This document shows positions 13,048 to 60,391 of a stretch of DNA of 64,000 bases, piece by piece. This DNA is from an uncultured Bacteroidota bacterium (GTDB taxonomy: Bacteria; Bacteroidota; Bacteroidia; Bacteroidales; WCHB1-69), in assembly GCA_902802755.1 (NCBI GenBank), contig CADCNH010000002.1, positions 72,008 through 136,007 on the forward strand, written 5' to 3'. The position numbers and the translations under genes are program-made. Each line of letters opens with the position of its first letter. Positions within the stretch are counted from its first letter, which is position 1. A model generated the notes under the pieces. That model worked only from the letters and a program-made list of their open reading frames with translations, was not told where the DNA came from and ran no database searches.

Positions 13048-14991
13048 TTATCTTCTGCCAGAAGGGGCGCTGCCTCTTGAGCTTCCGCCGCCTGAGTATG
13101 AACCTCCTGATGAACGGCTTCCTGAGTAACTTCCTCCTGAATAGCTACTTCCGCTTGGTCTTGAGCTGCTTGGACTTGAGTAGCTTCTGCTGCTTGAGCT
13201 GCTGGAAGAGCTGTTGGAGGGTCTTGAATAGCTACTGCTGCTTGATGAACTGTTTGATGAAGGTCTTGAATATGAGCTGCTAGAAGAGTTGTTGTTAGAT
13301 GGTCTAGAGTAACTATTGCTTGAGTTGTTGGAAGAACTGTTGGAAGGTCTTGAATAGTTGCTTGAGTTGTTGGAAGGTGAACTATTGTTGGAGGGTCTTG
13401 AGTAACTGTTGTTTGAATTTGAGGAGTTGTTGGAATATCCAGAAGGTCTTGCATAGTTGCTACTGTTGGAGTTGGTGTTAGGTCTGGTAGTGCTGCTTCC
13501 AGAGGAGGTGCTGGTGGCAGGTCTTGTAGTGTTGTTGTTGCTGTTGTTGTATCTGTTGGTGTTGGTGGCGGGAGCCTTGCTGGAGTATGGATCACTATTT
13601 ACATTGGTGTTAGGTCTGTTAGAAGATGTTGAAGGAGTTCTGGTAGCCGCACCACTGTTGTTATTCGTGGCAGGAGTTCTTACAGTGCCATTGTTGTTGT
13701 TAGTCGGAGTCGAAGGAGTTCTGGTAGCCGCGCCACTGTTGTTGTTCGTGGCAGGAGTTCTTACAGTACCATTGTTGTTGTTAGTCGGAGTCGAGGGAGT
13801 TCTGGTAGCCGCACTACTGTTGTTATTCGTGGCAGGAGTTCTTACAGTACTGTTGTTGTTGTTAGTCGGAGTCGAGGGAGTTCTAGTAGCCGCACTACTG
13901 TTGCTGTTCGTAGCAGGAGTTCTTACAGTACTGTTGTCGTTGTTAGTCGGAGTCGAGGGAGTTCTTGTGGTAGCGCTACTGCCGGTATTGTTATTAGGAA
14001 CTTTGCTGACAGCGTTGCTGTTGTTTCCTGGAACTTTGGTTGTGCTGTTACCACTTGGAGTTTTGGTGGCAGCTACTATATTGTCATATCTTTCGCTAAA
14101 GGTGCTACTCGGAGTTGCCCCTCTGCCGTTGGCTCCTGCGTTTACTCCGCTACCATAGTAGTTGGCGTAAGGACTGTTGGTGTAGTTGCCACCACCCATG
14201 CCGCTGTTGCCACCTGCCATATCGGGACGGTTTCCTCTGCTGTAGTCACGGTCATTGGCTTTGCCGTTGTTGACACCGTTACGGTTGAAATGTCCGTAGG
14301 TGAAGGATCTGTTGTGATCGAAGTTGTTGTGATAGTAACCGGCGTGTAATCCGTCATAGTAACCATTCCAGTAACCGTTTCTGTAGCCATGTCTGTATCC
14401 ACCATAACCGTAGGCATAGTAGCCAGGATATCCATAGTGCCATCTGCTTCCGCAGTAGATGCTGCCCCAACCCCATGAGTAGCTGAAGCCATAGCTGCAG
14501 TATCCGTAGGTGTATGCGGGACGATAGTATCTCGGCCAGTACCAATCATAACCTAAGTAGATGCTTACGCCCCAGTTGCCAGGATAACGATCATACCAGT
14601 ACAAGTTGGTGTAGTATGGATCGTAATAGCTCCAGCTGTAGCAAACCGGGCTGTGGAAACGTCTGATGCGTGCAGTGTAGGCATAGTCATAGTAATCATC
14701 ACTGTCATAGTAATAATTGTTGGTGATGTACGTGGTGCCTCCGCCATCAGTATAGGTTTCTGAAGAAGAATAAGCAGGAGCGGCTGCGGCTTCCGTGTAT
14801 GTTTCTTCGTATGCGTAATTGTTATACGAAGAGTTGTCGTAAGTTTCAGCTGCTTTGTTGACGTGTACTGCTTCGTATTGCTTATCGCTCGAAGTAGTAT
14901 AGACGTCATCATAATAGACATTCGAGTCTAACCTGCATGCTGACATGATTAATGCCAGTGAAACGACCGATAGCAAAATTTTCTTTTTCAT
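13048..14991 (-). CDS. Low-complexity Tyr/Trp/Gly- and Ser/Asn/Thr-rich lipoprotein
   Basis: A 647-residue lipoprotein (lipobox MSAC, C19) with no recognised fold. Residues about 20-110 are acidic and Tyr-rich. About 110-245 are extremely rich in Tyr, Trp and Gly ('YGYPGYYAYGYGGYRHGYR'). About 340-470 hold four to five tandem copies of a 27-residue unit built from 'TRTPSTPTNNNN' and 'VRTPATNNNS'. The rest is Ser/Asn/Arg/Gly low complexity. All this looks disordered and surface-exposed. Several long overlapping ORFs are codon shadows of these repeats. Upstream is a TATTTTTG box at 15057-15064; downstream is a strong terminator. Possible roles are adhesion, envelope stress or matrix; none is demonstrated. 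Confidence 0.75.
   Translation of the reverse strand: MKKKILLSVVSLALIMSACRLDSNVYYDDVYTTSSDKQYEAVHVNKAAETYDNSSYNNYAYEETYTEAAAAPAYSSSETYTDGGGTTYITNNYYYDSDDYYDYAYTARIRRFHSPVCYSWSYYDPYYTNLYWYDRYPGNWGVSIYLGYDWYWPRYYRPAYTYGYCSYGFSYSWGWGSIYCGSRWHYGYPGYYAYGYGGYRHGYRNGYWNGYYDGLHAGYYHNNFDHNRSFTYGHFNRNGVNNGKANDRDYSRGNRPDMAGGNSGMGGGNYTNSPYANYYGSGVNAGANGRGATPSSTFSERYDNIVAATKTPSGNSTTKVPGNNSNAVSKVPNNNTGSSATTRTPSTPTNNDNSTVRTPATNSNSSAATRTPSTPTNNNNSTVRTPATNNNSSAATRTPSTPTNNNNGTVRTPATNNNSGAATRTPSTPTNNNNGTVRTPATNNNSGAATRTPSTSSNRPNTNVNSDPYSSKAPATNTNRYNNSNNNTTRPATSTSSGSSTTRPNTNSNSSNYARPSGYSNNSSNSNNSYSRPSNNSSPSNNSSNYSRPSNSSSNNSSNSYSRPSNNNSSSSSYSRPSSNSSSSSSSYSRPSNSSSSSSSSRSYSSPSSSRPSGSSYSGGSYSGSRSSGGSYSGGGSSRGSAPSGRR
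13634..13980. repeat. 81-bp coding tandem repeat
   Basis: Unit starts (GGAGTTCT...) recur at 13634, 13715, 13796, 13877 and 13958, exactly 81 bp apart, so 27 codons per unit and always in frame. Copies differ by a few bases. Copy number could vary by slippage without breaking the reading frame. Confidence 0.9.
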
Positions 14992-43824: not shown

Positions 43825-43851
43825 TTTGATTCAAAAAAAGTTATATCTTTG
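43825..43851 (+). promoter_or_regulatory. Promoter of the sigma-factor gene
   Basis: TTTG (43825-43828), a 15-base gap, TATCTTTG (43844-43851); leader of about 95 bases. Confidence 0.65.
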
Positions 43852-43883: not shown

Positions 43884-43969
43884 AGGAGGAACATTATCGA
43901 TTAGACTTTTACTTGTTTTTTATTACTAACGATAAAAAAGAAAGGGAGGTCCCTATGAAATCGATAATG
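43884..43969 (+). promoter_or_regulatory. Structured leader of the sigma-factor gene
   Basis: AGGAGG at 43884-43889; CATTATCGATT at 43892-43902, exactly complementary to AATCGATAATG at 43959-43969, which is codons 2-5 of the gene; and GGGAGGT at 43944-43950, five bases before the ATG at 43955. Both SD-like sequences are unusual for this phylum. Confidence 0.65.
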
Positions 43970-44536
43970 CTAAGCGATAGCGAATTGATTAGTTTATATA
44001 TTGGTGGCGACGAGTCTGCGCTGAAGACTTTGATTTTGCGTCACGAAGAAAAGATTTATACTTATATTTTGTCTGCGGTAAAGTGCCGCGAGTTGGCGGA
44101 AGATATTTTCCAGGATACCTTTATCAAGGTGATTAACACGCTCCGTACGGGCGGCTACCAAGACGAAGGCAAGTTCCCGCAGTGGGTGATGCGTATCGCC
44201 AACAATCTGAAAATTGACCATTTCAGAAAGGCACAGCGCTTGCCTGCATACGAAAGTAATGGTGATTTTGACATTTTCGACACACTTGGTATTGAAGACC
44301 CATCGGTTGAACAGAAAATGATACAGGAGCAAGTCTATGCTGATATTCAGGGTCTGCTGCAATACCTGCCTGAAGAACAACGAGAGGTGTTAGAAATGCG
44401 TATCTATCACGATATCAGCTTCAAAGAAATAGCAGAACTGACGAATGTTAGCATCAACACGGCATTGGGTCGTATGCGCTATGCGTTAATTAATTTACGG
44501 AAGATGGTAGAGGAAAAGAAACTGGTTCTTTGCTAA
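43955..44536 (+). CDS. RNA polymerase sigma factor, ECF (sigma-70 family)
   Basis: A 193-residue ECF-type sigma factor. Region 2: 'LKTLILRHEEKIYTYILSAVKCRELAEDIFQDTFIKVINTL' and 'FPQWVMRIANNLKIDHFRK'. Region 4: 'LPEEQREVLEMRIYHDISFKEIAELTNVSINTALGRMRYALINLRK', a complete helix-turn-helix. ATG 43955 has a near-perfect SD (GGGAGG, 5-base spacing), so the frame upstream to 43913 is not used. No anti-sigma gene is visible; a 52-residue ORF lies downstream. The leader can fold onto the start region. Confidence 0.92.
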   Translation: MKSIMLSDSELISLYIGGDESALKTLILRHEEKIYTYILSAVKCRELAEDIFQDTFIKVINTLRTGGYQDEGKFPQWVMRIANNLKIDHFRKAQRLPAYESNGDFDIFDTLGIEDPSVEQKMIQEQVYADIQGLLQYLPEEQREVLEMRIYHDISFKEIAELTNVSINTALGRMRYALINLRKMVEEKKLVLC

Positions 44537-44690: not shown

Positions 44691-44849
44691 ATGGAAAAAA
44701 GTTCGACCCTTTTACAAGAAGAGAAAAAAACGATGAAAGCTGAGCGTCCCCGCAGAAGTGTGATACAGAACATCTTGAATTATTCTAAGTCGTTGCAGGT
44801 AGTCTCTGCCACAAATTTGGGGATGTCGTTTTTACTTCTCAACAATTAA
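44691..44849 (+). CDS. Small protein downstream of the sigma factor
   Basis: A 52-residue ORF, too short for usual calling. The N-terminal third is charged and polar ('MEKSSTLLQEEKKTMKAERP'); then 'SVIQNILNYSKSLQV' and a hydrophobic end 'ATNLGMSFLLLNN'. The pattern 'hhxxILxYSKSLxV...LLLN' resembles short proteins I recall downstream of ECF sigma genes in Bacteroidales, so it is probably real. It could be a regulator of the sigma factor; that is inference. A heptamer repeat follows its stop, as after annotated genes here. Confidence 0.6.
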   Translation: MEKSSTLLQEEKKTMKAERPRRSVIQNILNYSKSLQVVSATNLGMSFLLLNN

Positions 44850-60314: not shown

Positions 60315-60391
60315 TGGTGACCCATGCAGGATTCAAACCTGCAACCTTTTGATCCGTAGTCAAATACTCTATTCAGTTGAGCTAATGGGCC
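60315..60391 (-). tRNA. tRNA-Arg (anticodon ACG)
   Basis: A complete 77-base cloverleaf with encoded CCA. Acceptor GGCCCAT/ATGGGTC (one G-T pair), D-stem GCTC/GAGT, anticodon stem TTTGA/TCAAA with loop CTACGGA (anticodon ACG), T-stem GCAGG/CCTGC, discriminator A. A34 should be edited to inosine by TadA to read CGU, CGC and CGA. It has its own promoter and terminator. Confidence 0.95.

Follow-up and report, generated by a model that had tools for sequence, protein, structure and literature searches.

The window, that is, the whole stretch of 64,000 nucleotides that was analysed, encodes an ECF sigma factor of 193 amino acids with an ATG start (43955..44536, + strand). The protein belongs to the ECF group as judged by TIGR02937 (sigma70-ECF; 90.2 bits, cut-off 42.9) and matches Pfam Sigma70_r2 and Sigma70_r4_2 above cut-off; its score with the NCBIfam equivalog PRK12513 (157.2 bits) is below the curated cut-off of 206. 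An alternative TTG start at 43913 is possible, and the ATG is the start that is kept in relatives. Such relatives were collected at 45-100% identity from 82 loci of the window's genus, family and order, and a scan of a named collection added a further 80 loci, including those of Leeuwenhoekiella, Gillisia, Aquimarina, Polaribacter, Winogradskyella and Tenacibaculum. The sigma gene was furthermore detected at E <= 1e-35 in 95 of 198 additional genomes of the phylum, including 48 listed as belonging to the same class, in a sample whose listing gives no kinship for the 83 genomes without a match.

The gene neighbourhood is partly conserved. A divergent upstream gene, which we take from its sequence to be uvrA-like, belongs to a cluster represented in 90 of 162 loci, and genes presumably resembling bcp and nth are common neighbours. 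On the 3' side, the window contains a small open reading frame for 52 amino acids (44691..44849, + strand; ...SVIQNILNYSKSLQ...) without a match in Pfam or NCBIfam; of the 158 loci with sufficient downstream sequence, 57 have a relative of it behind the sigma gene. The small proteins are about 45-65 amino acids long, contain ...ILNYSKALSV... and span the Bacteroidales to the Flavobacteriales.

The leader of the sigma gene (all features + strand) probably begins shortly after the -7 box TATCTTTG (43844..43851), which fits the housekeeping promoter consensus TAnnTTTG of Bacteroidota (PMC7366714), with a transcript start expected a few bases further 3'. This consensus occurs 5' of the last 45 nucleotides in 108 of 159 sigma leaders, compared with 14.1 in mononucleotide shuffles. 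The leader contains two Shine-Dalgarno (SD) sequences, SD1 (AGGAGG, 43884..43889), located 6 nucleotides 5' of an AUC at 43896, and SD2 (GGGAGGT, 43944..43950). It also contains CATTATCGATT (43892..43902), which is the perfect reverse complement of AATCGATAATG within codons 2-5 (43959..43969), so that 11 base pairs could join the leader to the coding sequence. The earlier note had placed both SD sequences, the ATG and both 11-mers correctly, base for base. By a rough estimate, a perfect match of 11 nucleotides between a leader of about 60 nucleotides and a coding start of 20 would arise by chance with a probability in the order of 1e-4.

The SD sequences are unusual in the window, because GGAG is present between positions -20 and -4 in just two of 38 long open reading frames, in line with the rarity of SD sequences in Bacteroidota from which the earlier note had started. 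The calculated duplex with the 16S rRNA tail amounts to -10.2 kcal/mol for SD1 and -12.7 kcal/mol for SD2, the latter ranking second among the 38 open reading frames in the -20..-4 frame. The only other strong SD among these frames (AAAAGGAGGT; -13.0 kcal/mol with the 16S tail) precedes a gene for a lipoprotein-like protein of 647 amino acids without a Pfam match (13048-14991, - strand).

Conservation of the leader and of its predicted pairing

The window leader is predicted to fold with -26.9 kcal/mol (z -1.94; z -2.84 in the frame -85..+36). In this fold the two 11-mers form helix A, the 5' arm of which includes the sequence TATCG (43895-43899), the core of the element described below. GACTTTT (43904..43910), in effect an anti-SD2, pairs with GGAGGTC (43945..43951) in helix B and thereby buries SD2. 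A conserved UAC is located at 43910-43912, and an A/U-rich apical hairpin (43913..43942) is seen in the predicted fold alone and varies in sequence among relatives. The AUG of the window gene is predicted to lie in an unpaired junction of 7 nucleotides, and in locus L001 it is predicted to be mostly unpaired (0.88). The idea that SD2 would sit in a loop, as had been suggested earlier, does not agree with this fold, in which it is paired.

The earlier note had made its proposal dependent on conservation and covariation of the repeat, and comparison with relatives revealed both. In a sequence-only alignment of 20 leaders from the window's family, picked for visible pairing with codons 2-5, 85.4% of the helix A cells are paired, a share that falls to 24-43% once either side is shifted by 1-3 columns against the other. 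Twenty-two leaders had been listed for this purpose; L021 and L029, which both pair better with codons 9-13, were dropped. Compensatory changes on both sides of helix A are directly observed in 21 cells versus 8.4 in shuffles, a value reached in 0 of 500 of them, with the reservation that cells are not independent and that the covariation in large part reflects common descent. The number of pairs changed on both sides (five) is unremarkable when taken alone, as it is reached in 73 of 500 shuffles. Columns 10:90, for example, read GC 11 times and AU eight times, and columns 11:89 read CG in 10 leaders, UA in eight and UG in two. Codons 2-5 are near-constant in the window's genus and vary between genera (MKSIM, MKKIA, MNAIA and others), with the leader varying along with them.

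Helix B yields a smaller signal: the extended helix B pair scores 25.7 versus 17.2 for swaps (p 0.04), and helix B alone exceeds swaps at the 0.05 level in just 35 of 142 cases. Predicted structure with z < -2 was obtained for 18 of 44 leaders of the window's family (L025 had too little upstream sequence and was excluded from the leader tests; L002 was left out of the z-score set). In three members of this family (L046, L051 and L056), whose start codons are uncertain, complementarity between the leader and the first part of the coding sequence extends to some 20 nucleotides, the extreme form being that of L046 with 22 uninterrupted pairs.

Distribution and gene specificity of the element

Judged from the sequence comparisons, the 11-bp repeat of the window represents a local version of a more widespread element. 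The leader element which the earlier note had recognized exists as described; its scope is wider and extends through the class Bacteroidia, in much of which it occurs without any SD. The element itself is directly observed as a core motif, [CT]UAU[AC]G-N(4-10)-[UC]UAC, that precedes the sigma gene in leaders of this class. Its strict form was counted in the window's family (23 of 44 leaders), other Bacteroidales (28 of 36), the named-collection scan (40 of 79) and the class sample (12 of 45), against a chance expectation of 0.1-0.7 per group for patterns that were written after the leaders had been inspected. None of 19 leaders from other classes of the phylum contains the strict core. Beyond the window's family, leaders differ in which sequence pairs, over what length and in which register; what stays is the core.

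In comparisons free of any one register, each element was matched, as its best near-contiguous helix, with its own initiation region and with regions swapped in from dissimilar loci. For the 114 core-bearing leaders, complementarity to the own initiation region is observed to exceed that to swapped ones in all four groups (Wilcoxon p 7.5e-9 for 27 leaders of the window's family, 3.5e-5 for 35 of other Bacteroidales, 1.6e-9 for 33 of the Flavobacteriales-rich scan and 1.0e-3 for 19 of the class sample); these p-values are too small because relatives are not independent, and the direction is alike in all groups. A cruder search for duplexes with long bulges, in which 14 of 81 loci fell under 0.05, was weak and gave way to the near-contiguous helix tests. 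Among other Bacteroidales, the leaders do not exceed ordinary genes in predicted structure (4 of 36 leaders with z < -2, compared with 6 of 38 genes of the window).

In the Flavobacteriales, the core is followed by UUACUUU, the partner of which, AAAGUAA, stands directly before the AUG, so that the stem adjoins or takes in the start codon and in many species continues through it. From the Flavobacteriales-rich scan, 52 leaders (50 of them unique) were aligned by sequence alone, and the whole matrix of 5' and 3' columns was searched. Seven of the 10 best column pairs belong to the helix, with z from 4.6 down to 2.3; the best pair of all (z 4.9) adjoins it across gap columns. In subsets of 15 and 12 of the 52 leaders, which were selected by register, 86.1% and 89.4% of the cells are paired; A3 (32 of the 52) was aligned and left uncounted. 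Sliding the 15-leader subset by +1 gives an equally good covariation score (0.167 vs 0.152), with 62.4% of cells paired. RNAalifold returned no pair for the mixed-register alignment because registers differ by one. Taken singly, seven of eight scan leaders fold with z -2.8 to -5.8, the eighth being that of Aquimarina (L110, -1.0), and 29 of the 69 scan loci L094-162 have z < -2.

In the searches made, the element is restricted to the sigma gene, an observation that holds for two types of query. A covariance model produced 18 hits in 18 of 296 genomes, every one directly 5' of the sigma gene; as its structure was set by hand on 15 register-matched leaders, the model leans on the analyst's choice, and its misses say little because the first pass scored 15 candidates per genome. 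The pattern of the window's family, GGAGGRACNYTATCGANT, occurs once per genome in 13 of 17 relatives, only at the sigma gene and with its 5' end 56-70 bases before the ATG in all 13. A regulon sharing the motif was considered and rejected, given that this pattern matched the sigma gene alone. The shorter Flavobacteriales pattern was found in 15 places in 10 of 17 genomes, compared with seven for a reversed control. A search of the window with Rfam 15 yielded a tRNA (60318-60391) as the sole match and none over the leader, and no match was obtained in 12 loci carrying the sigma gene. Three genomes (L245, L246 and L247) contain tandem sigma genes; here the core precedes one copy per pair only, and the other copy therefore seems to have lost, or never had, leader control.

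A candidate translational repressor and its alternatives

We consider it likely, on the strength of these comparisons, that the leader acts in cis as a dedicated repressor of sigma factor translation. After transcription, the segment that starts at the core and is antisense to its own initiation region would fold onto it. In the window, codons 2-5 would be tied to the leader by helix A and SD2 by helix B, with the AUG held in between; in the Flavobacteriales, a single long stem would cover the bases just 5' of the AUG and often the AUG as well. Ribosomes would be excluded until the 5' arm is taken away, and translation of the sigma factor would in this manner be both repressed and regulated. 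With regard to a metabolite riboswitch, the hallmark of which would be a conserved ligand-binding aptamer, what is conserved in these leaders is a short core. Being short and tolerant of A or C, this core looks like a docking site, and we infer that an activator may bind there, be it a protein, a small RNA or the ribosome itself. The earlier note had thought of a translational switch. The repeat is conserved and covaries, and the principle recurs where sequences and register differ; an RNA structure masking the start is therefore supported, whereas a trigger for switching was not found.

That the ribosome is the docking partner is one specific, rather unlikely version of events. According to it, SD1 in Bacteroidales captures a 30S subunit whose anti-SD is free; AU(A/C) then comes to lie in the P site, and the footprint of the subunit on the antisense 5' arm uncovers SD2 and the AUG. 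The sequence AU(A/C)-GNN-stop would then be a deliberately poor two-codon start-stop that holds the ribosome, and the sigma factor would sense the status of ribosomes, being made when these lack bS21 or are relaxed in fidelity. In the window, AUC-GAU-UAG (43896..43904) could speculatively be such a start-stop. Among leaders with the strict motif, 20 of 23 from the window's family and 16 of 28 from other Bacteroidales have GGAGG or AGGAG within 16 nucleotides 5' of it, and the spacing from GGAG to AUM is 7 in 31 of the 47 leaders having GGAG. Of 125 leaders kept for their core pattern, 114 are unique, and 55 of these have an in-frame stop at codon 3, compared with seven and six at offsets +5 and +7; UAA, UAG and UGA all occur. 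T at +6 co-occurs with the stop-completing pair beyond independence (Fisher p 1.6e-5), and among Bacteroidales-type leaders the stop is present in 26 of 42 with SD1 and 4 of 20 without (p 0.003), figures in which descent is ignored. The spacing of SD1 and the stop hint, and no more than hint, at a ribosome that waits at this place and thereby exposes the real start. Access to the anti-SD is controlled in Bacteroidia: bS21 normally hides it, and ribosomes lacking bS21 use SD sequences (PMC9976891). The same text gives SD-anti-SD pairing stronger than about -13 kcal/mol for genes controlled by bS21 and SD; our RNAduplex values are -12.7 to -13.2 kcal/mol for SD2 and -10.2 kcal/mol for SD1, with the proviso that the energy method of that paper may differ.

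Several observations speak against ribosome docking, above all as a general mechanism. The Flavobacteriales keep core and stop without SD1. The stop is missing in 16 of the 42 leaders with SD1, and UAA in 13 rows can also be explained by pairing of CAU(AA) with the AUG, the removal of which leaves 43 of 101. A leader reading frame with an ordinary start codon was discarded: in the leaders read, none begins at the core except ATG-TAG in L079, and the absence of AUG from the core-pattern set is no finding, as the pattern used excludes it. If ribosome docking were true, transcription would be linked to the composition of ribosomes in a phylum whose anti-SD is as a rule concealed.

Opening by temperature is considerably less probable. 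An RNA thermometer, in which heat melts the hairpin and the sigma factor acts as a heat-shock regulator like rpoH of E. coli, would agree with the layout, in which the leader of a sigma gene pairs with its start and first codons, and with the U-rich anti-SD strand; SD2 is paired in the predicted fold, just as a thermometer at low temperature would have it. When 15 leaders were computed at 10-60 °C, however, the mean accessibility of positions -15..+12 changed little between 20 and 42 °C (0.37 throughout in L001; 0.15 to 0.21 in L160 from Polaribacter), and a sequence-conserved core is not expected in a plain thermometer. As the folds predicted from 20 to 42 °C are nearly alike and do not open, we set aside a plain thermometer, and heat alone is an unlikely opener.

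There is even less to be said for the core as a DNA operator or second promoter with incidental pairing. Binding of a protein to DNA would likewise explain the sequence conservation of the core, but 108 of 159 leaders have their housekeeping -7 box upstream, and DNA binding does not require compensatory changes on two sides. Finally, the notion that the repeat arose by chance or as a by-product of a conserved protein start fits the near-constant codons 2-5 of the window's genus and is contradicted by the joint change of codons and leader between genera and by the excess of own over swapped complementarity across groups, such that we regard it as scarcely credible.

Comparison with known systems

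Two sigma factors of E. coli provide the closest parallels for a repressor leader. In the rpoH thermosensor, base pairs that involve coding sequence mask the start region of the mRNA, and the window leader shares this layout; it differs in that it serves another sigma class, that its predicted fold stays shut in the physiological range and that a short core is conserved class-wide. In the rpoS leader, an upstream antisense strand represses translation until the small RNAs DsrA, RprA or ArcZ open the structure. Here, too, an upstream strand is antisense to the initiation region, and its removal would activate translation; in contrast to rpoS, the stem adjoins or covers the AUG, and the sigma class is again another.

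Within the phylum, the autoregulation of rpsU (bS21) in Flavobacteriales relies on a single extended SD that is read by ribosomes lacking bS21, and no member of the Bacteroidales comes under the rpsU criteria in the accessible part of PMC9976891. Both that system and the sigma leader have a strong SD in an SD-poor phylum; as far as that part of the paper goes, rpsU has no repressor hairpin, unlike the sigma leader. For Flavobacterium psychrophilum, a member of the Flavobacteriaceae, 64 structured 5' regions have been reported, most of them without an established mechanism, and the conserved examples given in the accessible part of PMC9723704 (pheA, hisG, ftsY, acsA, alaS and rimP) include no sigma factor. 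The sigma leader might be among the 64 regions. A description of this leader was not found in the literature searched; Table S7 of PMC9723704 might list it.

Post-transcriptional control in Bacteroidota is little known, and the element would be a dedicated RNA leader running through the class Bacteroidia, from the window's order to the Flavobacteriales and the other orders sampled. In bacteria that seldom rely on SD sequences, these may here serve as signals. Sigma factor leaders that mask the start are a known kind, represented by rpoH and rpoS; the one described here, which has no match in Rfam, is spread through the class Bacteroidia.
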